Virus record (IMG/VR): IMGVR_UViG_3300032308_002388
Location: 1 to 30,738 of that record
Direction: 5' to 3' (one strand)
DNA from: a virus
DNA: 30,738 nucleotides
Shown one piece after another: positions 1 through 28,300 of the stretch. Made by a program: the position numbers and the translations under genes. The notes under the pieces were generated by a model that was not told the DNA's origin, searched no databases, and saw only the letters and a program-made list of their open reading frames with translations. Position 1 is the stretch's first letter. The number at the start of each line of letters is the position of its first letter.

Positions 1-1446
1 ACGCCCAAGTTCTGTGATCTCTACTGAGAGATCGTTTTGAAATATGACTTGATGCGGCAATCCAATACGGTCCAGGTAGTGAGTGAGCCGGGCATTCAAG
101 TAACTCAAGTTTTGTTCAATGATCTTCTTGCGGATAAATGAGTCTTTGTTTGTGAGTAGTTTCAACAAGAAATCTTGATGTTCCTGCAATCTTGTAAGTT
201 CGTTGAGAGTGTCATAGGTCATTACTTGCAATGCCTGCCCAGTCATTTCTTCAATTTGTTCACCGTACGGATCTTGCTCAATTGCTTTTTCTGCAATTTG
301 TTTTTCTAAATTAGTCAATGTTGCTTGATGATGTACAGCATCAGCTTCATTGTCATAGAACATCTTGGGCGGTTTACCTAACGTGCCCAAGGATGTGTGG
401 GCAGCCTCCAGCTCTGATAACATGGTGCTGTGTTCCTGGCTTGACGCTCTTGCACTTGCCAAATCTTTCTGTTTCGCTTCCATGACTTGTTGGTGCTTAT
501 TGTCGTGGAACGGTTGACCGCATGTGTGACAGGTATGAGATTCAAGTGTTGCAATCTCTTTGCTAAGTTTTTCAGTGATTTTGTTTTCTCGATCCACGTC
601 AAGTTTCGTGCGGGAGATCTGGCCAGATAAGTCGTTAATATCCTTGCGTTTCTGATCCCAAATTTTGTACGCCTTGTGTGACGCAATTTCCGCTTCAATA
701 TCAATCTTCTTGAGTTCTTCCAGCGCCGTTTGTAACTTTTCAATCTCTTCATCATGTTTTGTTGCCCACATTGTTTGTCGACGACGTAGATTTTCAATTT
801 GTTCTTCGATGCGCTTGTTGGCTTCTTGTACAGCACGAATACGCATTTCTTCTTGTGTGATGCCGTCTTTGGTTTCTCTATTGAGTTCTTTTATGCGTTC
901 AGCACGTTCGCTGAGCAAGGTGATTCCGAGAAGCTGTTCAATAATGGCTCGTTGGTCATTGGCCTTTAAACTCAAAAACGGCTCAGTGTATGTGTTCAAT
1001 GCCAGCACATGCTTGAACATATCGTGAGTCATGCCCATGACTGATTCTATGGCATCTTGTGTTTCACGACTGTCGCCTTGCGAATTGTCATCTGCGGCTT
1101 GTTCTTCTTTGTTGACATAAAACTTTAGCACATTGGGTTTGCGACCGCGTTCAATTTTGTAGTCTCTGCCGTTGATATTAAAGTCCAAGCTGACCAACAT
1201 GTTTTTGCCATTGGTCTTGTTGATTAAGTTGTCTCTGCGAATATTGGTAAGAGCTTGGCCATACAACGCATAACTCAATGCATTGATGATTGTAGTTTTA
1301 CCTGTACCGTTGCGACTACCGTCGCCTCCTAGATCCAAATTTTCTCCCAGTACCAGTGTAAGGTCTCTTCGATCAAAGTTAATGGCCTGTGTGGTATTGC
1401 CCACACTCATAAAGTTTTTAACTGTTAAGTCTTTTATTTGGATCAT
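1..1446 (-). CDS. 46: gp46-like recombination endonuclease subunit (Rad50/SbcC-type ATPase), C-terminus beyond the window
   Basis: This is the ATPase subunit of the phage Mre11/Rad50-type complex, which in T4 resects DNA ends for recombination-dependent replication. Reading the minus strand from the ATG at 1446 gives 482 codons that are still open at base 1, so the C-terminal part is missing (T4 gp46 is about 560 aa). Residues 34-52 form a P-loop ending in NGTGKTT (Walker A). A Q-loop-like stretch containing LALNTYTEPFLSLK follows, then a long charged, Gln/Glu/Lys-rich region typical of a coiled coil. At its apex is a CxxC zinc hook (C306-H-T-C309). The Walker B and signature motifs must lie outside the window. 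The start overlaps the stop of the upstream gene as ATGA (1443-1446), which suggests coupled translation. Identification is by motifs and by the gp47 homologue in the same operon. Confidence 0.93.
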   Translation of the reverse strand, partial: MIQIKDLTVKNFMSVGNTTQAINFDRRDLTLVLGENLDLGGDGSRNGTGKTTIINALSYALYGQALTNIRRDNLINKTNGKNMLVSLDFNINGRDYKIERGRKPNVLKFYVNKEEQAADDNSQGDSRETQDAIESVMGMTHDMFKHVLALNTYTEPFLSLKANDQRAIIEQLLGITLLSERAERIKELNRETKDGITQEEMRIRAVQEANKRIEEQIENLRRRQTMWATKHDEEIEKLQTALEELKKIDIEAEIASHKAYKIWDQKRKDINDLSGQISRTKLDVDRENKITEKLSKEIATLESHTCHTCGQPFHDNKHQQVMEAKQKDLASARASSQEHSTMLSELEAAHTSLGTLGKPPKMFYDNEADAVHHQATLTNLEKQIAEKAIEQDPYGEQIEEMTGQALQVMTYDTLNELTRLQEHQDFLLKLLTNKDSFIRKKIIEQNLSYLNARLTHYLDRIGLPHQVIFQNDLSVEITELGR

Positions 1447-1844
1447 CGTTTGTTGATTTTGTTACCGTATAGTAAATGATATTGTACCCAGTCTTGAGCG
1501 AAAAAGTCAATGAACACAGTGCCCGATTGATTCCAGGATCTAGTAACTGTGATTGTGTCTGAAGAGCCAGTTGGCTGAAAATTACAAATTTGATCTAAAA
1601 TGCGAGCATTCAACTCTAGACCGGATAGTATAATTTGATTTAATCGTATGTTATTGTTTTGCGGTACTGAGAGATCAAAGAACAGTCTGTTAGGAAAGTC
1701 AATGTCAAAAGAAACAGTTTGTGTTTGGCAATGGTCAAACACGATATTGTCGGAAACCACATTTTGTCTATCTCGAATTGATATGCTACACAGCTGACTT
1801 AAGTCAGCACATTCAAAAACAATATGCAGTTTGTTAGTAAGCAT
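1443..1844 (-). CDS. hypothetical 133-aa protein between the radical SAM gene and gp46
   Basis: I do not recognise this protein. It lacks a signal peptide, membrane segment or cysteine cluster of known type. Alternating hydrophobic and polar residues (for example TVSFDIDFPNRLFFDLSVPQ and TITVTRSWNQSGTVFIDFFA) suggest a mostly beta fold, possibly a small beta-sandwich. I chose the ATG at 1844; a TTG at 1847 is the only slightly longer alternative. The start lies inside the last codons of the radical SAM gene (11-base overlap), with a weak GGGG about 9 bases upstream. Its stop overlaps the gp46 start as ATGA. This double overlap and a clean reading frame make it a real gene. The position suggests a partner or substrate of the radical SAM enzyme, but that is inference from gene order only. 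Confidence 0.75.
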   Translation of the reverse strand: MLTNKLHIVFECADLSQLCSISIRDRQNVVSDNIVFDHCQTQTVSFDIDFPNRLFFDLSVPQNNNIRLNQIILSGLELNARILDQICNFQPTGSSDTITVTRSWNQSGTVFIDFFAQDWVQYHLLYGNKINKR

Positions 1845-3228
1845 CAAGATTAAACCCCAGTTCTATACACAAGTTAACTAGATCTTTATGATAAGACTTT
1901 CTTTCTTCAATGCTGATATCCTTGGTTTCCCAGTTAGTAATACTGGATGAATCTTTCAACCAATAGATGCCATGACTTTTGGAATTTCTGCTTAATCCAG
2001 TGCCAGGTAGTATTCCAGCGGGATTTAGGAAAAGACGCGAGATGGTTTTGTTAAACCTTGCTCTCTCTATGAACCAATTTTTTGTAAATTCCCAATCATC
2101 TCTGGTTTCAGTGGGATATCCTGTGATTATCATGAGTATGATTTTTACATTGTACTTCTCGGCCATCTCTAGGTGCCAATCTATATCTTCATTCTCAAAC
2201 ACCTTGCCAAGTCTGTGTCTTACGTGCGGAACAACACTTTCTACGCCTATGCTCAATGTTGCGTATGTTTCTCCCATTTGTTGCCACATCAACTCAGGAT
2301 GTTGACTTTTTTGTCTCACAATAAATGATGCGTTCCAGGAAACTTTTTCAGGACGATATAACTTTTCTTTGTTATAATCATGCATGAGTGTTAATAATTT
2401 TTTAAATTCTTTAAGATTACCATTGGAAAGACTGCTTCTAAAATCAAAGTCACGAGTACCATAAGTTTTGATCTGCGCAAGCATTTCATCAAAAATGTTT
2501 TCTGCTTTTCTTGATTGATATTTTTCCCAAAATTCAATGATGTCACAGAATTCGCAGTTACGAACACAGCCCTTGGCATCTACCACTGGCATGTAGGCCT
2601 GTGAGTACAGAAAGAAATTGTAATCTGACCAATCAGGATATGGCAAACTGTCAAGATCACCAATGGGTTTCCAGTTGTCTGAGCCGATGCCAGGATAATC
2701 ATAGTTGCCATTTACATATTCAATCAAGGCCTGATCTCCGTCACCAGTTATGTAATGATCAATTAAATTGTATTCAACAGCAAAATTTCTAAACGGGTCT
2801 GACTCGTTGCCTACGGTATTTTTTATACCTGGGCCGCCGATTACTATACGGGCAGTGGGACACAGTTGTCTTAATAGCAAACATAGCCATAGAGTAAAAT
2901 TTTGACATTCAAAAGTCAATAAACTCAATGCTATCACTGTGGGATTTTTAGAAGCAATTCGATTTGCACAATATTGAAGTATTGTTGAAATTACCTCAAC
3001 ATTCCAGTCGTCAACAGTCTGACGATCAAAGAACTTTTTTAAGTTCTGATGTTCAGGATGAGATCTAACTTTGGCCAGGACTTCAATGTTTAAATCCATG
3101 GCTGTGCTAGTAATACCTGCACGAGTCAATGATGCCTTGAGAACAGCAGGAGCTGCCATAGGAGCATGCATTGAATCAACCAATGGCATGGAAGCTATTA
3201 CAACATGATGATTTAAAGTGGTGTTCAT
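1834..3228 (-). CDS. radical SAM protein with N-terminal B12-binding-like domain
   Basis: This 464-aa protein has the layout of cobalamin-binding-domain radical SAM enzymes. The N-terminal Rossmann-like region (residues about 8-175) contains IVIGGPG at 128-134 and TGDGDQALIEY at 161-171. The linker DLDSLPYPDWSDY (191-203) is typical of the family. The radical SAM cluster motif follows as C221-VRN-C225-EF-C228 (CX3CX2C), then a GVESV-type strand and a C-terminal TIM-barrel remainder with MIITGYPTET. The classical DxHxxG cobalamin-ligand motif is not visible, so B12 may not be bound in the usual way. Substrate is unknown. The gene begins inside the stop of the gp47-like gene (ATGA, 3225-3228) and overlaps the next gene by 11 bases. 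It therefore sits inside the recombination operon, between genes 47 and 46 that usually sit close together. Confidence 0.9.
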   Translation of the reverse strand: MNTTLNHHVVIASMPLVDSMHAPMAAPAVLKASLTRAGITSTAMDLNIEVLAKVRSHPEHQNLKKFFDRQTVDDWNVEVISTILQYCANRIASKNPTVIALSLLTFECQNFTLWLCLLLRQLCPTARIVIGGPGIKNTVGNESDPFRNFAVEYNLIDHYITGDGDQALIEYVNGNYDYPGIGSDNWKPIGDLDSLPYPDWSDYNFFLYSQAYMPVVDAKGCVRNCEFCDIIEFWEKYQSRKAENIFDEMLAQIKTYGTRDFDFRSSLSNGNLKEFKKLLTLMHDYNKEKLYRPEKVSWNASFIVRQKSQHPELMWQQMGETYATLSIGVESVVPHVRHRLGKVFENEDIDWHLEMAEKYNVKIILMIITGYPTETRDDWEFTKNWFIERARFNKTISRLFLNPAGILPGTGLSRNSKSHGIYWLKDSSSITNWETKDISIEERKSYHKDLVNLCIELGFNLDAY

Positions 3229-4241
3229 AAAGCCTGATAGATTTGTAATAGCAATTTAGGATCGTAAAACTCTGATTCAATCTTGGTGATTTGATCTGTG
3301 ACAATTTGATCAACAGACTCAAATTTGACTTCTCCAGGCGCTAAGTCTTCTTCCAACGCAGATCGCTTGTTGGGCATCAAAGCCATTTCTCTTAGATTGT
3401 GTTTGCTGATAAATGTATCTTTGATAAAACCAGCTTCTTCGTAGGAGATTTCAATGTCCAACTGCACACGCACATGCATGTTGGGTTTGAGCAGTTGATC
3501 TCCGCGGTCAATCAAGGTAGATAGATCAAACACATTGTACAAAGGTTGACCGGGCCAGGCATGATACTCGGGCTCTGCGCCCCACTGTAAAATCATGCAA
3601 CCTCGTTTGTCGTCGCCGGCATCGGCAAAGTTATGCGGGAACGCATTGCCAATGTAGTTGATATTGTTTTTGTGTTGCCGTAGGTGAAAGTGACCAGAGA
3701 ACACCTTGTCATAATGTCCAAAGTGTGCGGCCTGTATCTCACCGTGGTCTGGCATTTCTACCATGGCATTCATTTTGAAATGTGGCAGTTCAAAGTGTCC
3801 AAACATATATTTGCTGGACATTTTTTGTATGCGCCGGTGATCATCTCCGACCAGCCAAGGCGCAATTATAACATCGCCTTCTTCAAACCAGTCGTTGCAC
3901 ACATGTATGTTGGGCAAGTGCCGAGCCCAGGCCGCACCATGAATGTCTCGCTTGTCTCTGTAGTAGAGATCATGATTGCCTGGAATAAAAAAGAATTGAC
4001 TAAATGCTGCCGATAGCTTTTCCAGCGCCTGCAAGCTAAAGTTTAGAGTCTGGAGATTGATTGAAGCTCTGTGGTGATGCCAGTCACCCAGGAACATGCC
4101 AGTTTCACACCCTTGTTCTTTGCCAGTGGCAATGATCCAATCCACAAACTGTTCACAGTCTTGATTGTGCAACAGGCTATTTGATTTCAGTCCAAAATGG
4201 ATGTCAGTGAAAACAATGGCTTTTTTAAATAAGTTGGTCAT
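3225..4241 (-). CDS. 47: gp47-like recombination endonuclease subunit (Mre11/SbcD-type phosphoesterase)
   Basis: This is the nuclease subunit that pairs with the gp46-like ATPase to process DNA ends during recombination-dependent replication. The protein is 338 aa, nearly the same length as T4 gp47. All calcineurin-like phosphoesterase motifs are visible: D13-I-H15, GD53 in LGDWHHH, G-N89-H90-D91, an additional histidine at FGH149, and G-H184-F-H186 in FSGHFHLRQ. These supply the two-metal active site. The C-terminal 100 residues are the variable capping and partner-binding part. The ATG at 4241 lies 14 bases after the end of the gp55-like gene. The stop overlaps the start of the radical SAM gene by four bases. 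Intact motifs suggest an active enzyme. Confidence 0.95.
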   Translation of the reverse strand: MTNLFKKAIVFTDIHFGLKSNSLLHNQDCEQFVDWIIATGKEQGCETGMFLGDWHHHRASINLQTLNFSLQALEKLSAAFSQFFFIPGNHDLYYRDKRDIHGAAWARHLPNIHVCNDWFEEGDVIIAPWLVGDDHRRIQKMSSKYMFGHFELPHFKMNAMVEMPDHGEIQAAHFGHYDKVFSGHFHLRQHKNNINYIGNAFPHNFADAGDDKRGCMILQWGAEPEYHAWPGQPLYNVFDLSTLIDRGDQLLKPNMHVRVQLDIEISYEEAGFIKDTFISKHNLREMALMPNKRSALEEDLAPGEVKFESVDQIVTDQITKIESEFYDPKLLLQIYQAL

Positions 4242-4255
4242 AGAGTAGCAGTATA

Positions 4256-5155
4256 CTACTCTTCCGGAGTATTTGCAACCGCTTCGGCTGCCTTGTTATG
4301 GCTTTCGCTGAACTGGCGTGTCCAACTTGGATTGAGTCCGTTCATTTCCAAAATGTCGTCTCGCATGTTTTGCATTTTCTTTTCAATGTTCAACACACGA
4401 GTAAAGCTGTTAGTGATAGCGGCAGTATAATACGCAAAAGGGTTCTGCGATTTTGACTCGTCAAACTGCAATCCAATTTGGCTGAGCTGTAGCAGGGCTT
4501 GTCCCCGCATTTCTTCGTTGTATGTGTATCCACGCCAGTTACTCCTTGTAGCATATCTTTCGCATAATTTTATAAACATATGGGCCAATTTATTGGTCAT
4601 TTTGCCGTGATCTCTGCAGAACTCGCCACCATCTAAGGTACCACGCCAGTGTGATTTACCTACCAAAAACGGCTGTTTTTCTGTGTCTAATCGATAGTGA
4701 AAAAACGGTGGAAAGTTCAATCTCACGTAGTTCATGTCTAGTACAGGAACTTCTACTAAGTCCTCTAAACCGTCGGATTCCACTGTGTCGTCTTCCAAGG
4801 CCAAGAGCTCTTCCATTTTGCTTTTTTTGGCCTGTGCTTTGGTTTGTTTTTTGGGTGCCATGGGTATGTGATCCCAACAAGTGATACGAAATACTAGATC
4901 TGTGTGCGGAATCTTTTTGTCGTTGACAATTTCTCCTGTTTCGCGCTTGATGCGATCTGCACGAACACGCCGGGCTTCGGCTATGGTGCGTTGATTGATC
5001 TTTTCCAGGCTGGGCAAAATAATATCATACTGATGATCCGTTGCAGGATCCTGGTAAGTACAGTAGGTATTTTTGCTGGCGTGTATTTCTTTTAAAATAT
5101 CTCTGTTGTTGAGATAATTGACTTTTTTTGGTGTGGGCGTAGCTGGTGTGGCCAT
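4256..5155 (-). CDS. 55: gp55-like sigma factor for late transcription, with a large internal insertion
   Basis: This sigma-70-family protein would direct host RNA polymerase to phage late promoters. The N-terminus VNYLNNRDILKEI (residues 12-24) aligns with the T4 gp55 N-terminus as I remember it (YNYVNNKELLQAI). The C-terminal core (about 185-270) matches the conserved region: a helix after KMTNKLAHMF, then GYTYNEEMRGQALLQL, FDESKSQNPFAYYT and a basic helix ending IEKKMQNMRDD. Between them lie about 150 residues absent from T4 gp55 (185 aa total), including a Lys/Gln-rich stretch and an acidic stretch. The T4-type C-terminal hydrophobic clamp-binding motif is not seen; the tail ends AVANTPEE. 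I chose the ATG at 5155 (299 aa). It has an AGGAG 11 bases upstream, whereas the longer frame would start inside the promoter spacer. It is first in the minus-strand operon. Confidence 0.87.
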   Translation of the reverse strand: MATPATPTPKKVNYLNNRDILKEIHASKNTYCTYQDPATDHQYDIILPSLEKINQRTIAEARRVRADRIKRETGEIVNDKKIPHTDLVFRITCWDHIPMAPKKQTKAQAKKSKMEELLALEDDTVESDGLEDLVEVPVLDMNYVRLNFPPFFHYRLDTEKQPFLVGKSHWRGTLDGGEFCRDHGKMTNKLAHMFIKLCERYATRSNWRGYTYNEEMRGQALLQLSQIGLQFDESKSQNPFAYYTAAITNSFTRVLNIEKKMQNMRDDILEMNGLNPSWTRQFSESHNKAAEAVANTPEE

Positions 5156-5166
5156 GAGTTGAACTT

Positions 5167-5171
5167 CTCCT
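5167..5171 (-). promoter_or_regulatory. ribosome binding site fixing the gp55-like start
   Basis: AGGAG on the minus strand lies 11 bases before the ATG at 5155. The only upstream in-frame start, at 5194, falls between the -10 and -35 boxes and so would not be on the transcript. Confidence 0.75.
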
Positions 5172-5182
5172 ATATTGTAGTT

Positions 5183-5210
5183 ATTATACAACACTCTTGC
5201 CCGTTGTCAA
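5183..5210 (-). promoter_or_regulatory. consensus sigma70-type promoter for the gp55-47-46 operon
   Basis: On the minus strand a perfect -35 box TTGACA (5205-5210) is followed by a 16-bp spacer and a perfect -10 box TATAAT (5183-5188). The predicted transcription start is near 5176, leaving a leader of about 20 bases with the AGGAG at 5167-5171. This is the kind of promoter that unmodified host RNA polymerase would use, consistent with early expression of a sigma factor needed later. Confidence 0.88.
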
Positions 5211-16349: not shown

Positions 16350-19300
16350 ATGGCCAATACAAGAATACGCACAGTAGATTTCTTACCAGAAATTTTCCGC
16401 ACACCAACCAACAGACAATTTTTGTCTGCAACGTTGGATCAGTTGGTCCAAGACCCAAAACTCAAGCCCACACAGGGATTTATTGGACGTCGTGTTGGCC
16501 CCGGAGTCAATCCACAAGACAACTATGTTCTTGAACCAACAAGATCACGCACCGACTATCAGTTGGAACCAGGCACTTGTTTTTTAACGCCAAACACCAA
16601 CACAGTAGCAGATGCACTGACTTATCCTGGACTGGTTGACTCTATTGGAGTCAAGGGCGGCAACACCACACGAGCAGACAGACTGTTTGCCAGTCAGTAT
16701 TATTCTTGGGATCCGTTTGTTGATCTTGACAAATTTGTAAACTTCAGTCAATACTATTGGCTTCCTGGCGGTCCAGATTCAGTGGATGTGTTTGCCAATC
16801 CAATCCCGCTGGAAGATGACTTTACAGTCACAAGGAATCCCAGCAACTACACATTCAGCGGAGTGCCCGGCACTAACCCCACTCTTACCCTGGTACGTCA
16901 AGGAAGCTACGAGTTCAATGTTCAACAAACTGGACATCGTTTTTGGATACAATCAGTGCCTGGCACATCTGGAACACTGCCACAGACCCCAAATCAAAGC
17001 AGTAGAGAGGTCCTGGGAGTAATTAACAATGGCGACGACAATGGTACAATAACATTCAATGTTCCGTCCAAGTCAGCACAAAATTTCTACTATCAGTTGG
17101 ACGATGCAGGGGTTGTGGACTTTGCAACCAACATTGAATTTGATGAAATCAACAATATCTATCTTGACGATTTTATCAAGAAATACGGCGGCATCGACGG
17201 AGTCACCGACATTGGTGGCCGAACCATAATTTTTCTCAACGATGCTGGATGGTTTTACACAGGACTATTTGACAGTGCCGGTCAGCCCTATGACAGTGTT
17301 CCCTTCGACGAAACCATAGAAATCACACTGGACAGCCAAAAATACAGTGTGTGGCGCATCAATTTAGTATATGATGACACACTAAATCCCTACATTAGAC
17401 TCACTGTAGAACAGCCAGTAAACAATTTAAGTAAACTGTTGGTTGAATACGGAGACCAGTATTCAAATATCTATTTTTATAAAACAGCATCTGGAACATT
17501 TGAACGTATTCCACTGATCACTGCTGACCTTGACTATCTGTATTATCAAGATGCTGACAATCCAGAATTGTTTGGTATCATCAGATTGGTAGACAACGCA
17601 CAAGAAGTTCCAATTGTCATTGATGATGCGGCCACTCCTATTGTGACACTGATTGGATCGGTCATAGTAGGTAATACACTGACTTTTAGTACCTCTGTGG
17701 GCGGAGCTCCGCTGCCGGGTATGGTACTCAGTGGCGGTGGTGTCACAGAAGGAACATACCTTGTCAGCGGTACAGGAAATACCTGGGTGTTGAATCAACA
17801 AGCCACAGGTACACCTACCACAGCGAGACTGGTCAATATCATTGGATCCAGTGAATATACCAGCCCTAACGGCGTGGTATTCTCCAATGGACTCAAAGTA
17901 CAGTTCCAAGGTCCAACTATACCCGAATCGTATTCTGGAAATGAGTACTACGTTGAAGGTGTAGGTGAATCAATTACCTTGTTGCCAGTCACTAGATTTA
18001 TCACTCCAGAGACTTACACTAGATCAACTACAGTTCCCTACGATTCCACACCCTACGATTCCACACCCTATGATGAGTCGTTGAATGCTCCACTGGATCA
18101 AGATTACATCACAATCAACCGAGCCAGTCTTGACTTCAACGCCTGGAGCCGTAGCAATCGTTGGTTCCACATTGACATCATAAATGCCACAGCAGAGTAC
18201 AACGGATCAGTGCCTGTACTAGACAATAATTTCCGTGCCAAGCGTCCAATTTTGGAATTTGTTCCTAGCCTAAAATTATTTGATTTTGGAACCGAAGGGT
18301 TACCACCCATAAACATCATTGATTTTAGAGCCACCGACGCCATGAGCGATATCAATGGTACCATTGGCTACAGCATTGATGGGTATGCGTTTCAAACTGG
18401 CACAAGAGTAATTTTTGCAGCCGACCGAGATCCGGAAGTAAGAAATAAAATTTTCCAAGTCACATTTATTACACCGTCAGGGTCTGGGGTCCCAATTATT
18501 GACCTACAACCAGCCGATCTTAATGCACCCGACCAACTGCGTGATCAGAGCGTGTTAGTCACCAGCGGTATTACTCAGCAAGGAACCACTTACTGGTACA
18601 ACGGCGAAGTGTGGGTTCCAGCACAACAAAAAAGCAACATAAATCAGCCGCCTCTGTTTGATGTATTTGATGAAAATGGAGTAAGCTATGGCGACCGAAT
18701 AGTGTATCCCAGCACATCATTCGCAGGAACCAAACTGTTTAGTTATGCACCCGGCGAAGGTGTAACTGATTCAATCATTGACCAGCCACTGAAATATCTC
18801 ACAATCAACAATGTAGGAGACATTGTATTTGACAACAATCTCAACGTTGATACATTTGTGTATGTTGAAGATACCATCAGTGTTGAAGTTCCCATCAATG
18901 ATGGCATAGTTCGACAATATCAAAATCGTACAGAGTTTGCCAAATTACTGGGTTGGAAAACAGCAGAAACACAAGTAGTTTCTCGACAAAGTTTTAGTTT
19001 CAATTACACCACAGGCCAAGACCTTGTGATTGATATTCCAGTTGATACTGACTCTTCAGCGATTCCAGTTAAAGTATTTGTAAATGCCTTGTTTGTCAAC
19101 CCAGACGAGTATACCTATGTTGTAAACGCAAATAACTCGACTACAATTTCTTTTATCAATGAACCGCCCAGTGGCGTTTCAGTAGAAGTCAGTGTAATCA
19201 GCAATGTGGCAAGTCCTACTGGTTTTTATTCTGTACCGTTGAATCTTGAAAACAATGCAGTGAATGCCACAGTGCCCGACCTCACACTGGGAACCATACG

Positions 19301-22300
19301 AAATCATTATGGTACAATCTGTCAGAACTTGGCAGACTTCCAGGGCGATATAAATGGTCCTAACAATTCTAGAGACCTTGGTGACATAATTCCGTTTGGT
19401 CAGATCATAATGCAACAAAGTGCTCCATTGACCATGGCCAGTACTTTCATCAACAATCCAGGCTATGATTTTTTCCGATCATTGGAGTATTCTTCAACTC
19501 AATACGAAAAATTTAAAAATGTCCTAATGGACACAGTGGTCAAAAACAATTTTCAAAACATGACCGTTGCTGAGATTTTAGATGAGTGCATGATACTGAT
19601 CAATCTTGGCAAAAACGAACTCACTCCATTTTACTGGACTGATACTATTCCCACAGGTGAAACATACGAACAAACAGTGTATACAGTGACACCAATCACT
19701 GGCACCACGTTTGACACACTGTACACTTATAATTTTGACGAAGCCAACTATCGAGCTATTCTAGTATATCTCAATGATGAAATATTGTTAGGTGACGACA
19801 TTGAATACAGTGTGGCTGCCGACGGACCTCGATTGACTGTGCTGGTACCACTCACTGTTGGAGACGTGTTGACCATTCGTGAGTATGCTACCACGTTTGC
19901 AAATTATGTGCCATCAACTCCTACCAAGTTAGGACTGTATCCTTCCTATGTTCCAGAGTTATTTTTAGACGACACCTATGTACAGCCAACCTTTGTTATC
20001 CGTGGGCATGATGGATCAATCACTGTGGCCTATAACGACATACGAGATCAGATACTGCTGGAATTTGAAAAACGTATCTACAACAATCTCAAAGTTGAAA
20101 AAAATCCTATTCCGTTGGTACTGGATGATGTGGCTCCGGGTCAGTTCCGTACCACAGATTATACTCAAGGTGAAATCACACAGATTCTAGGAACCAGTTT
20201 CCTGGCCTGGGTTGGTGCAAACAAATTGCCCTACCGAGAACAAGACTACATTGAAGACAATGAGTTCACCTGGAACTATAGTGCCAGCCAAAACAAATTA
20301 AACAATCAACCATTGCTGGGCGCATGGAGAGGAATTTATAACTATTTCTACGACACAGATGCACCCAACACTCGTCCCTGGGAAATGCTAGGGTTCAGTG
20401 AACGACCGACCTGGTGGGAAGAAGAATACGGTCCTGCGCCATATACCTCGGGCAACTTGGTTCTTTGGGAAGATCTTGAAGCAGGTCGTGTAATGGATCC
20501 AGCAGGATCCTATGTGCTGAACAAATACAAACGTCCTGGACTAACATCAGTGATACCATCGGGCACTGAAGGACAACTACTGTCGCCATTTGAAGTCATG
20601 GTGGGAGAATACGATCAAGGCAGTTTCCGTAAGAGTTGGACAGTGGGAGATGATGGGTCAGTTGAAGCATCATGGAGAAAATCCAGCGCCTGGCCGTTTG
20701 CAGTTCAAAGATTGTTGGCACTGACAAGACCTGCTGATTATTTTGCATTGTTTGCCGACAGAGACCTCTACAGATACAACAACGAGTTTGGCCAGTATTT
20801 GTACAACAATCGATTCCGTTTACAACCAGAAAACATTGAAATCTATGGCAATGGAGTTATCAAGAACAGTTATATCAACTGGATAGTTGACTACAATCGT
20901 CAAACCGGTCTTGACAGCACAGCTGATCTCAAAGTAGTATTAGAAAACATAGATGTAAGACTTTGCTATCGTCTGGCTGCTTTCTCTGACAAACAATACA
21001 CCAAAATTTACACAGAAAAATCCAGCCCCAACAGTTTGAACACCAGTTTGTTGTTGCCCGACGAAAGCTATCAATACCTGCTGTACAAGAATCCTACAAT
21101 ATCAACCTTGACATGGAGTTCGGTGATCATACAACGAACTGAACTAGGGTATGCAGTGTATGGATACAGCACCACAACACCTTACTTTGAAATCCTAGTC
21201 AGCGTACCCAATGGAAATTATCGTACTATCAAAGTGGCCGACACTGTGGTACGTGCCCCCAACGATTTTAGCAACACTGTGGTTCAAGTTCCATATGGAT
21301 TTGAATTTACCACAGTGAACTCAGTGGTGGACTTCTTGCTCAGCTACGGTGCGTTCCAGGAACGTCAAGGCATGACCTTTGAAGATAAAGACAACGCTAG
21401 AATACTGAACTGGAGTCAAATGGCTCAAGAGTTCATTTATTGGAGTCGTCAGGGCTGGGGCCCCGGCAGTCTTATCAACATCAACCCAGTGGCCAACACA
21501 CTGAATGTGATGAGACCCAATCAGATCGCCGAGTCACTGAGTATCACTGCACCAGAAGACATATTACTGAATCAAAACAAACAAGCTCTGCAAGGGCAAG
21601 ATTATGTAGTAGAAAGATTTGAAAACGACCTTGTGTTACGTGCAGTCAACAACAACACGTTCAGCTACCTCAACGCCAAGTTCACAGCCTACGAACACAT
21701 GATTGTGTTGGACAACATCAGTATTTTTAATGATTTGATTTACAATCCAGCCACGGGCGCCCGCCAGAGTCGTTTGCTGTTTATAGGCTACACTACCTAT
21801 GACTGGAACGGCAGTCTAGATGCACAAGGATTCATACTGAACCAGGACAATGTGGAACCATGGTCTCCAAACCGTGCTTATTCTAAAGGACAAATTGTCA
21901 AGTACAAAGATGCTTATTGGTCAGCAGTAAAAATTATTCCTCCCACTGACAAATTTGATTTCAATGTATGGATTAAGAGTGATTACAATCTCATACAAAA
22001 AGGCCTGTTGCCCAATGCCGCAACCAATTCCGAACAGGTACGAAATTTCTACAACACCACGCAGGCAAACTTTGAGCGTGATGCTGATTTGTTTGCATTT
22101 GGATTGATTGGTTTCCGTCCTCGACGTTACATGCAGAATTTAAATCTTGACGACATCAGTCAGGTCAACATCTACAGTCAGTTCTTGGGTACCAAAGGAA
22201 CCACACAGGCCACAGACATATTCACCAAGGCCAATCTTGGAAAAGAAGTTGCCGAGTATAATATTTTTGAAAACTGGGCAATCCAGCGAGCAATCTATGG

Positions 22301-25300
22301 TGCCAATGCCAACCGCAGTTATTTTGAACTACGACTCAACGAAGCACTGCTGTTGGCCAACCCGTCAACAGTGGAAATCATCAACCCACAACAGTTCAGC
22401 GAAGCAGATCAAACTGTGTTGGTCAGCAATATCTGGAAAGAAAGTTATCCAATCACATCACCGGACATCTTGCCAACCACGGATCTCAGTGCCACAGACA
22501 GTCAGTTGCCCAGTGCCGGATATGTAAATTGGGATGATGCAGATATCAAACTGTTTAATTTTTCTGATCTCACTGCAATCATCAATGACATTGAGAACAT
22601 TGCAGTAGGCACCAGCGTTTGGGTGGCCAAAGACAATGCCTATGATTGGAACATTTATCGCAACAATCTGGTGATCTACAACATGACCCAGGTTCGTGAC
22701 AATCTCAACGGAACCTGCACATTTACATTTGCAGGACAGCACGGATTATTGGTTAATTCACAAATTGTGATCAAGTATTTTGACCAAGGCATTGATGGTG
22801 CATATCGAGTGCTCAGTGTACCCAGCCTCAAAACAGTCACAGTGGAGTTAAGTCTGGGTGGTGCAGTCACACAAGTCACTGGCATTGGTGTTTGTTTTGT
22901 ACTTGAAACCATGCGTGTGGCCCAGGCCAGCGATGTTTCAAACTTGGTTTATTCCAACAGCTTGTTGCCAGGCAACAAGGCCTGGGTAGACGACGATGGC
23001 ACAGGCCACTGGATTGTGTACGAAAAAATTGATCCGTTTACCAATGGTACCGAACTGGTTCCTCTTGAACCTGTGATCAGTTCTAGATTTGGAACATCCA
23101 TAGCACAAGGCTTTGGCGGGTTGGCAGCCATTGTTGGTGCACCGGGCTACGGCAATGAAGTAGGCGCAGTATATGGGTACACCAAAGGTGGAACCACATC
23201 CTATGTTGAAAGTGTAGTGTTGACCATGGGAGCCAACAATTTTGTTGGCTACGGCGATTCTGCTGCCTGTGGCAACAACAGTTGGGGTATAGCCGGCGCT
23301 CCTAGAAGCTGGGCCAATCAAGGCTATGCTGTAGCGATCTATCGCAATCCTGATTCAGGCAACTTCATACAAAGTCAACTACTGACTGAAGTACCTTACA
23401 GATTATATCAAGCCACAGGCAATGGTGTGACTACTAGTTATAACCCATCAGCTTCTATCACCATCACTGATCCTACCAAGGTTGGTGTGGTCATCAATGA
23501 TGTGGTACAAGTATATGGAACCAACTGGACTTATTCAGCTCCCAATGTTGTGTTTACATCAGTGGCCACCAACAGCACTCCAGTGGCAGCACCGCCCAAC
23601 GGATCGCAAATTAACATTTTCTTGTACGATGAGTATTCATACAGCGTAGCTATCAGCCCAGACGAACGTTGGATGTATGTTGGAGCTCCAGCTGGCAATC
23701 GTGTGTATGCCTACAACAAAGTTGATGTACAGCTACAAGCCAAAAACTTTGTTGGCGATGGGTCAACAACTACATTCTTTATTGCAGATACCATAGTGGT
23801 AGACAATGATTCTGCAACTGGCGGTATTGGATCGCAACAGCTTGGAGTCACAGTCAATGATCTACCAAAAACAGCCAATGTGGACTGGACCTATGACGGT
23901 GAAAATGTTGTGTTTGAAATACCACCAAACACCGGTGACGAAATACGTATAATACGTTTGCAGAGCAAGACATTCTTTCCAACTTTGCCTGTGACCACCT
24001 TCAACATTGAAGAAATCTACACAGCAACAAACATCTACAGTTTCAGCATGTATGTCAATGACGTACTACAACGTCCCAACATGGACTACACGTTTAATAC
24101 AACAACTAAAACTGTGACCTTCTTGCAAGGAGTCACAGGAACCATTCTAGCAACCAGCATTTCATATTGGGAATACGTTGATTATCTAACAGTGGCCGGA
24201 TTGCCAACTACTGCAAGATTTGGGCATTCGCTGACAACCACAACAGATGGTCGTCAAATTGTAATAGGCACCCCTAACGACACAGTTGATGGAAAATTGT
24301 TGGCAGGACAAGTGTATGTGATTGATCGCTGTGTGGAAAGATTCACAGTAACAAATCCATCCATCACTACTTACAGCACACTGAGAAACTTCAGCGGCCC
24401 TGCCACAGTCAAAGTCAATGCTACATATTTGATCCCTGATGGATCCAACAATAACGGCCAATTTACCGAAGACAATGCCAACACTGTGACCATTGATTAC
24501 CCATTGAATGTGGGTGACATCATCGAAATTGAAACCAATCAATTTGAACTCATGCAGGCAGTGGCTTCAAATGCACCGCAAGCTGGCGCTGTATTTGGCA
24601 GAGCAGTTGACCAGTGTCCTACCAATTGTAGTTTATACATTGGTCAACCCAACGATTCCTCTGTGTTACCAGAAGCAGGCAGTGTAGAAAGATTTGTAAA
24701 TCAAAACAGATTATATGGAATAATCACAGGCGTTGAACAAAATCCTACATTAACGCCCGGTGATACTGTGCGAATCAACAACGTTGACATTGAAGTGTCT
24801 ACCCCAACAGCATGGAACAGTGCCATTGCCTGGGCCGCAAATACATTTGTGATCGACGGAGCAACCATCTATCGTTCTATCAGAACAGTGCCATCGTCAG
24901 TGAGTATTGATGATACCACTTACTGGAAAGAGTCTAGTTGGGTAGAACTCTACGCCAACGATATCAATGTGGCTGCCGCTCCTGTGCAGTCAGGGCCAAC
25001 TGCTGGCTTGGTATTGATACCCAATGTTAGTGCATCAGTCAACAATGGATACCTGACCATCAGCATTGCCAACTCAAACGCAGTCGTACCATTTACACAG
25101 TTGTTGGTATTGCCAGGAATTGGCAATGCTTATAACGACCTTGGCATGGAACCCATGTATTACACACAAACAGTGGAAGCGCCAAATCAGATTGCGTTTG
25201 CGCACTTTGGTGAGTCTGTGGCGATCAGTGATGATTCTCTCACACTGGTAGTAGGATCACCACAAGGCACAGCAGCCAAGCCCACTACGTTTGACAATGG

Positions 25301-28300
25301 AACAACATACTTTGACAGCAAGGCCACAGAATTTTTTGATCTGTTATCAGAGAGCGGAGTTGTTTACACCTATGACTTGTTGTCAGCGGCCAATGGATCC
25401 ATAAGAAACCCAAGTAAGTTTGTGTTTGGTCAACAAATTTACGATGAAACATTGCAGTCATTGGATGAGTTTGGCACAGCAGTCAGCTATGTCAATGGCA
25501 TATTACTGGTTGGATCACCACAGGATGACCTAGGCGACAGCATAGGCGACTATGGTCGTATCACACAGCTGAACAACATAGATAGACTAGCGGCCTGGAA
25601 TCCAATCTACAGAGAAACACCAATTGTAGATGTTAAACTGCTCAATTCTGTGTTTGCATACGACAAACTGGAATCAAAAGTCACACAATACTTTGATTTT
25701 ATTGATCCATTGCAGGGCAAAATACTAGGATCGGCCAGACAAAACATTGATTACATTGGAGCTCTTGATCCAGCCAACTACAATTTTGGAGTGGTAAACA
25801 ACTTTGGCGACACATGGAATGAAAGCTATCTTGGTCAAATGTGGTGGGATCTCAGCACAGTAAGATTTATTGATTATCATCAAGGCAGTATTGAGTACGA
25901 AAGCCGACGTTGGGGACAGTTGTTTCCAGGCAGCTCAGTAGATGTATATCAGTGGATTGAAAGCACAGTTCCACCAGCTTCGTATGATGGGCCAGGCACA
26001 GTTTACAGCACCACAAGTTACGTGGTCACTAGCAAGCTCAACAATGATGGCTTGTTTGCTACACGTTATTTCTACTGGGTCAAAGGCATACGAGAAGTGA
26101 TCAGTCGTGCCAAAAAAACACTCAGTGCCGAGGCAGTGGCGCAATACATTGAAAATCCACGCGGTTCGGGTATTCCTTACATCGCGGCGTTGTCACCCAG
26201 TGCTGTGGCCTTGTACAATGCGCGGCCTTACATATCTGCACAAGACACCATCTTGCATGTTGAATTTGATAAAATAGCCAACAGCGACAACGTTCACGTG
26301 GAATATGATCTTATTCCATCAGGTGATCCTGATGGATTCCTGGGCGCTGGCCTGTATCGTAAAATGCTGGATTCATTCTGCGGTGAAGATACTCTGGGCA
26401 ACAAGGTACCTGATCCACTGTTGAGTCCGGCCGAATTGTATGGTGTACAGTTCCGCCCACGTCAGAGCTTTTTTGCAGATCGATTCTTGGCCCTGCAAAA
26501 CTATCTTGAGCGAGCCAACAACATACTGTTGCAGTTTCCAATCAGTGACAGTCGTCCTTTCAACTTGCTCAACAGCGAAGAGCCGGAACCAACATCTGCA
26601 TCTGGTGAATGGAACAAGCGTGTGGCAACATACACTGAATTGACATATCAGGATCTTGGCGAAGTACCAGTTGGCTACAAATATCTTGTGGTCACAGACA
26701 GCACCAACAAAGGATTGTGGACCATATACACTGTGACTCCTACCATTGATGGAATATCCAAGTACCTGTTGTTGAGTCGTGTTCAAAACTACGACACCAA
26801 ACAGTATTGGGAATATGTTGATTGGATTCAACCAGGATACAATGCCAGCATCAAGCCTGTGGCTGAAGTTGCTACATTCAATGATCTGCAAAGACTCACA
26901 GTACCCGAAGGCGCCAGCGCCAAGGTCACACGCAACAGTTTTGCCAAGTTTGAGATTTATCAATATCTCGACGGCGAGTGGATTCGTGTAGTTCTTGAAG
27001 ATGGTACTATACAAATTAAAAACACCATTTGGGACTACACAGCAGGAAAATTTGGATTTGACGTGGAAACCTACGACAGTCAATACTTTGACCAATACCC
27101 TGCAATCGAAACACGACAAATAATAAAAGCCATCAATGAAGAATTGTTAGTAGATGAACTACAAATATTCCGTAATCAACTGTTGATGCTGGTATTTGAG
27201 TATGTGTTGACAGAGTTCAATGCGCCAGACTGGTTGTTCAAGACCAGTCTCATAGATGTTGACCACAAGATACGAGAACTGTTGCCTTACCAAATTTTCC
27301 GTCAAGACAATCAAGACTTTGTGTTGCAGTACATCCAGGAAGTCAAGCCTTACCACGTGAAGATCAAAGAATTCAATCTCAAGTACTACGGCTTGGATAC
27401 CTACGATGGCACAGTCACAGACTTTGACTGCCCAGCATATTTTAACAGCAACATTGATGGATTTGAAGCGCCAGCTCTAGACGACACAAATCCGCCAAAG
27501 TACAGCAACAGCGTGCCGTCATCATCAGGACTGTGGCAAGAGCTACCGTGGAGTCAGTGGTATCAAAATTACACATTAACACTGCAAGGAGTTGATGTCA
27601 TCGAGTCAGGTGCTGGATACACAGTGCCTCCTGTTGTGACCGTTGGCGACGAATGGCAAGCCAACACAGCATACTCAACTGATCAGCAGATTTATTATCT
27701 AGGAAATCTTTACACAGTACAAGACGGTGGAACCACCGGCGACAAAGCCCCAACGTTTACTAGTGGAGTACAACTCAATGGCACAGCCACCCTGGCCTAT
27801 GCAGGATCAACTGCATTTGCTGTGGCTCGAGTTAATACTGCAGGACAAGTGGTTGAGATAATTGTAATTGAAACAGGTTCAGGATACACTGTTACTCCTA
27901 CAATCACCATCAGCGGCGGCAACGGGCTGGGTGCTCGCGCAGTTCCTGTGTTGGGTAACGAGCTGGTTAGAAATTTCTTGACCACACTCAAATACGATCG
28001 ATACAACTACAACAGTCAAGTGGTTGATTGGCAAACCAACACTGAGTATCTTGAAGGACAGTTGGTACGATTCCAAGATCAAGTTTACAGTGTTGACGCT
28101 GATGTCAATAGCGGTTCTATCTTTGATCCTGAGCAATACACTCTAGTAGATCAAAGCACACTTGATGCCGCGGATCGTGTGATTGGTCTTTACACTCCTA
28201 CTCCCAACGAGCCTGGACGCGAATTGGCTCAAGTCATGTTGGGCATTGATTATCCAGGTGTGCAAGTCATGGGGCCTGACTTCAGTCAAAACACAGGCTA

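Follow-up and report, generated by a model that had tools for sequence, protein, structure and literature searches.

A cobalamin-type radical SAM gene and its linked gene for a predicted beta-sandwich protein as a cargo pair in phage genomes

A gene for a cobalamin-type radical SAM enzyme (rSAM) and a small gene for a predicted beta-sandwich protein lie side by side among core phage genes in the stretch of DNA analysed here (the window, a single 30,738-base record in IMG/VR from an uncultured aquatic phage), whose minus strand carries the order gp55-gp47-rSAM-small-gp46. There is good support for this enzyme having a dedicated beta-sandwich partner, and on balance the two genes probably form a self-contained two-component modification module in which the partner would be engaged through its C-terminal tail. 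Since the pair stays together at other sites, it is probably one unit and has nothing special to do with gp46/gp47.

All of the genes concerned are encoded on the minus strand. The gp55 gene (4256-5194; phrog_12791, 3e-74) is followed by gp47, an SbcD-like nuclease subunit (3225-4241; phrog_100, 2.3e-58) that forms the left edge of the insertion site, while the right edge is formed by gp46, an SbcC-like subunit (1-1446; phrog_77, 1.3e-73) whose 3′ part is missing, cut by the contig end. Between them, the rSAM gene (1834-3228, 464 aa; Pfam Radical_SAM) and the small gene (1443-1844, 133 aa from its ATG, or 134 aa from an alternative upstream TTG) are joined to their neighbours and to each other by an ATGA overlap of 4 nt (gp47/rSAM, 3225-3228), an 11-nt overlap (rSAM/small, 1834-1844), in which the end of rSAM (...DAY*) includes the ATG of the small gene, and a second 4-nt ATGA overlap (small/gp46, 1443-1446); the coordinates thus bear out this part of the original prediction. 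Both genes are under purifying selection, with pN/pS of 0.26 for rSAM and 0.62 for the small gene (gp47, 0.23). Baseplate and virion genes occupy the diverging strand, as they do in the jumbo phages PA5oct, RaK2, PBECO4 and Vibrio 2.275, in which gp55, gp47 and gp46 are contiguous; Atu_ph07 has one small gene between 47 and 46, and Phosso two. On the plus strand of the window, a frame of 4796 aa or more (16350-30737) stays open up to the contig end.

The rSAM protein passes the Pfam Radical_SAM model (PF04055) with 33.9 bits against a cut-off of 29.5. Its CxxxCxxC 4Fe-4S/SAM motif (C221/C225/C228; 2545-2568, minus strand) is invariant in nine aligned close relatives, and the form C-VRx-C-xx-C is also present in distant phage and bacterial relatives. 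The N-terminal part (residues ~7-180; 2689-3210, minus strand) is predicted to be a B12-binding-like Rossmann domain that resembles the cobalamin domains of mutases (Z ~10), with a Pfam B12-binding score of 17.1 bits, below the cut-off of 32.1. Full-length structural matches to the model are AprD4 (the top match), OxsB, TsrM, CysS and MgmA (Z 13.8-11.9), and they point to the class B domain order of a B12-binding-like Rossmann domain followed by a radical SAM barrel; the model is poor (pTM 0.54), so that these matches depend mainly on overall architecture. The protein has no DxHxxG motif, which is often missing among cobalamin-dependent (class B) radical SAM enzymes. As judged from sequence and fold, rSAM has a cobalamin-type radical SAM architecture, and cobalamin binding is putative.

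Among the NCBIfam models, rSAM misses every curated family cut-off. The closest matches are TIGR03975 (RiPP C-methyltransferases), of which it is not a member (59.2 bits, cut-off 281.85), PhpK, ApyD and the MCR glutamine methylase MgmA, all of which share the order of B12-binding-like domain and radical SAM barrel; these nearest families have peptides, proteins, lipids or small molecules as their substrates rather than DNA. Compared with known cobalamin-type enzymes, rSAM belongs to a separate phage clade that is linked to a folded CBM60-like protein and not to a peptide precursor. Specifically, the locus does not have the make-up of RiPP biosynthesis: the partner is a folded 133-aa beta-sandwich according to its model, not a short leader-core precursor, and no peptidase or exporter was recognised beside the pair in the loci read.

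For the small protein, an AlphaFold2 model from eight sequences (pLDDT 84, pTM 0.78) indicates a CBM60-like beta-sandwich, with pLDDT falling below 50 from residue 127, i.e. over the final 7 residues. Its best matches among PDB folds are the vCBM60 structures 2xfd (Z 9.7) and 2xhh (Z 9.2), against 5.3 for the next best, and Foldseek gives E 2.5e-4 to CBM60. The small protein has no match in Pfam or PHROGs, the beta-proteins have no Pfam CBM match, and a PDB sequence search with beta profiles returned chance-level matches only, with no CBM60 chain among them. The vCBM60 proteins are calcium-dependent carbohydrate-binding modules that share the predicted fold at 7-8% identity; unlike them, the small protein is encoded by a stand-alone phage gene, has a conserved C-terminal tail and is missing the Asp-rich loop of its relatives. 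A deletion has removed this loop (GKTxxDTxVDxxGxIxxD in family members that are not paired with an enzyme) from the window subfamily, and the other rSAM-paired class has a shorter version of it; the ability to bind metal or sugar may thus have been lost.

The C-terminus is the best-conserved part of the small protein, yet it is largely disordered in the model. The conserved segment FAQDWVQYHLLYGNKI (1455-1502, minus strand) has pN 0.09 and pS 0.61, against pN 0.47 and pS 0.71 for the remainder of the protein, and the tail includes DWVQYHLLYGNKI. Across the relatives' contigs, identity to the window is 24-46% for the small proteins and 66-78% for the rSAMs, i.e. the partner evolves faster, its C-terminus excepted.

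Ten IMG/VR contigs contain a close relative of rSAM (65-78% identity). Seven independent contigs (L001, L007, L008, L009, L010, which starts within gp47, L014 and L015) have the order gp55-gp47-rSAM-small-gp46, with an optional 289-aa gene before gp46, and an order from gp55 to gp46 that recurs with the pair in seven independent contigs is no assembly accident. In L011, L012 and L013 the rSAM gene lies at a second junction, in another replication operon. The small gene follows directly in all nine close relatives whose contig extends that far (the L013 contig stops within rSAM and is left out of this count). The 11-nt spacing is the same in nearly all of them, with L011 differing at the ATG-bearing codon, and it recurs because the codons for the C-terminal ...DAY of rSAM include the start of the small gene.

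Adjacency extends to remoter enzymes. Profile searches of 20 further large contigs yielded six distant rSAM relatives (E 1e-58 to 1e-111), and all six touch a beta gene of 143-184 aa, which follows rSAM in L227-L230 and precedes it in L231 and L232. These distant beta-proteins match the window family in hhalign with probability 90.9 and E 1.1e-6 (L227 alone, 82.7). Across 23 large contigs, 9/9 B12-type rSAM genes at E <1e-55 abut a gene of the beta family, although for most of the distant beta-proteins the search had started from a neighbouring rSAM, so that their detection is not independent. The suggestion that enzyme and small protein belong together has therefore held up, at two unrelated loci and in distant rSAM relatives. 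No beta gene adjoins the still remoter rSAMs L233 and L234 (E 1e-21 to 1e-31), or the bacterial relative L054 (E 7e-73), which is the sole cellular relative found in a motif scan of genome contigs and belongs to a MAG, where it lies within an island with abundant radical SAM genes. This bacterial island, read in L055 and L056 (MAG contig G006:C34), houses many radical SAM genes besides that relative, and one of its genes resembles, by eye, the phage gene L048:18117-19040.

Other searches added no further pairs. In INPHARED, no phage with the rSAM or beta-proteins was found, rSAM matches being weak only (E 0.1 or worse), and a search of genome contigs with the family alignment gave no match. 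Five extra contigs picked up by a scan for the motif W[IV]QYHLLY were rejected as chance matches in short or unrelated frames. Literature searches for cobalamin-type radical SAM enzymes in phages turned up no account of an rSAM-small pair.

Genes of the beta family also occur beside other enzymes. A beta-profile scan of the 23 large contigs gave 22 genes, of which 21 were inspected: nine adjoin a cobalamin-type rSAM, five adjoin a ~430-aa radical SAM gene of another class with an overlap of ~30 nt, one adjoins two genes whose products appear by eye to be PLP-dependent, and the other six share a cluster with a cytidylyltransferase. Because the profiles had been made from most of the nine B12-paired genes, finding these again is not independent, whereas the five next to the other radical SAM class were recovered independently. 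L153 and L143 contain one further beta-family case each, and in L105 a beta gene lies beside a Pfam sulfotransferase; the L105 and L215 proteins have no similarity to A3 by hhalign, and L105 joins the family only in an iterated HMM, while L215 does not. In the alignment, the proteins from the six loci without a paired enzyme stop at the helix ...YLWLLENM, and those on the enzyme side extend past it into tails that are alike within each class (YHLLYGNKI, (G/Q)GW[LI] or RHEKNNND), with L227 as the exception, an enzyme-side protein that has no tail beyond the helix. One beta-protein, L281:2944-3366, matches phrog_81 (2OG-Fe(II) oxygenase; E 3e-4).

The insertion site itself was surveyed in 80 IMG/VR relatives of gp47 among the matches listed (61-88% identity). 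The two genes abut in 35 of these 80 (25 with a 4-nt overlap and five with 1 nt), and the other 45 among the matches listed have an insert of 190-2537 bp. The inserts are varied, including a 289-aa-type gene (MIYCxWYPSGGFGH), radical SAM genes and multi-gene inserts as well as, by eye, SGNH, methyltransferase and adenylate-forming genes. The window's pair is absent from all 80 relatives among the matches listed. A 4-nt overlap is possible at both insert edges in 25 of the 45 among the matches listed, the downstream ATGA being partly intrinsic to the gp46 start. In T4 itself, genes 46.1 and 46.2 (207 and 264 nt) separate 47 from 46, again with a 4-nt overlap at either edge; the likeness is one of position and overlaps, and these genes are far smaller than those of the window. 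The second junction, between genes for 224 aa and 187 aa of the replication operon, is empty in 35/80, contains inserts in 38 and is cut off in 7. The gp47/gp46 junction is a cargo hot spot; indeed, core-gene junctions in these phages serve as slots for cargo, often with the 4-nt stop/start coupling preserved, and position in a core operon therefore says little about function in them.

Several other features of these loci were recorded. Proteins encoded in two of the gp47/gp46 inserts (L149:7476-8429 and L189:6030-6974) resemble periplasmic solute receptors (Bug family, by eye), and each gene adjoins an adenylate-forming-like gene. A 299-aa SGNH-like gene (by eye; L014:8077-8976) between gp55 and gp47 marks a further cargo slot in the same operon. 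The gp46 of L008/L003 (L003:9762-11843) has 693 aa, compared with 587 aa in most relatives, apparently through a duplication within its coiled-coil region.

The original prediction had read the position of the pair as a sign of joint function with gp46/gp47, perhaps in the modification of DNA, and neither part is supported by these data. As to the former, a subunit or regulator of the nuclease complex would account for overlapping genes in one operon, but the same junction holds unrelated cargo with the same ATGA overlaps (46.1/46.2 in the case of T4), the pair is missing in 80/80 gp47 relatives among the matches listed, and it is not obligately linked to gp46/gp47, being found elsewhere in L011-L013 and, in L011 and L012, without gp46/gp47 adjoining it. 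This explanation is largely refuted and hardly credible. The occurrence of the pair at unrelated loci (L011, L012, L013), one of the outcomes named beforehand as counting against a link to position, also speaks against reading DNA modification from position. A role in modifying phage DNA or nucleotides within the recombination operon seems very unlikely: replication or recombination operons do house the pair in both settings, but unrelated cargo occupies the same junctions in these phages, the nearest curated rSAM families do not act on DNA, and no nucleic-acid-binding fold is among the leading matches of the beta-sandwich partner. Since the junction is a general insertion spot that accepts multi-gene inserts, the two genes might also be independent cargo, neighbours by chance with separate functions; adjacency that is kept at different loci, in both gene orders and across rSAMs of which some are recognisable only by profile makes this very improbable.

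A more serious contender, though still a doubtful one, is that the beta-protein, as a split carbohydrate-binding subunit, directs rSAM to a glycan, in which case the tail would only dock and the glycan would be modified. The CBM60 fold predicted for the small protein is in line with this, as are the phage cargo (which includes a sulfotransferase by Pfam as well as what look by eye like glycosyltransferases and SGNH hydrolases) and the setting of the sole cellular relative found, an island where radical SAM genes are accompanied by genes that resemble glycosyltransferases by eye. It is weakened by the changes to the Asp-rich loop, which the window subfamily lacks and the other rSAM-paired class has in shortened form, and by the lack of any Pfam CBM match among the beta-proteins.

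According to the explanation favoured here, the two-component module, the two genes would be a cassette carried as cargo at a point where core phage genes adjoin and are translationally coupled, with the beta-protein acting as dedicated partner of rSAM and presumably bound via its C-terminal tail. Three properties of the tail favour its engagement by the enzyme: no other part of the protein is as well conserved, it extends past the folded domain, and it is specific to the enzyme class. The modified target would most likely be a residue of the tail, or else a ligand held by the beta-sandwich, and the product would probably alter a component of the virion or cell surface rather than DNA recombination. 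The chemistry would be C-methylation if cobalamin is bound; against this step stands AprD4, the top fold match, which functions without cobalamin. Similarly, the tail could be merely a docking peptide, and a dedicated partnership has to be set against the bacterial relative L054, without a beta gene alongside, and L227, without a tail.

Cassettes of radical SAM genes have been reported in pelagimyophages (PMC7029224), and the 183-kb T4-like marine genome TARA_ERS488813_N000010 has 12 radical SAM genes (PMC5332604). Contig G002 is like it in combining many such genes in one T4-superfamily genome, whereas the passage on that genome mentions no cobalamin class paired with a beta-sandwich protein (PMC5332604). 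Pfam radical SAM hits number 13 in G002 (the L014 contig, 209 kb), 8 in G003 (L015, 95 kb) and 3 in G001 (L011, 85 kb), and many of these genes are clustered, by eye, with glycosyltransferase-like genes. A 513-aa frame, L045:15409-16947, which looks like a tRNA-guanine transglycosylase/DpdA by eye (DSGGFQIAKG), was set aside, as it has no Pfam or PHROG match.

A wider reading, put forward tentatively, is that aquatic T4-superfamily phages may practise modular protein modification, in which a CBM60-like carrier has a class-specific tail modified by its own tailoring enzyme; these enzymes would comprise the cobalamin-type radical SAM, the second radical SAM class and possibly the PLP-like enzymes and the sulfotransferase. 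Some phage genomes from lakes and seas contain a dozen or more radical SAM genes, and for one class of them a gene-linked dedicated partner with a short conserved tail now provides an enzyme-partner pair that is directly testable.
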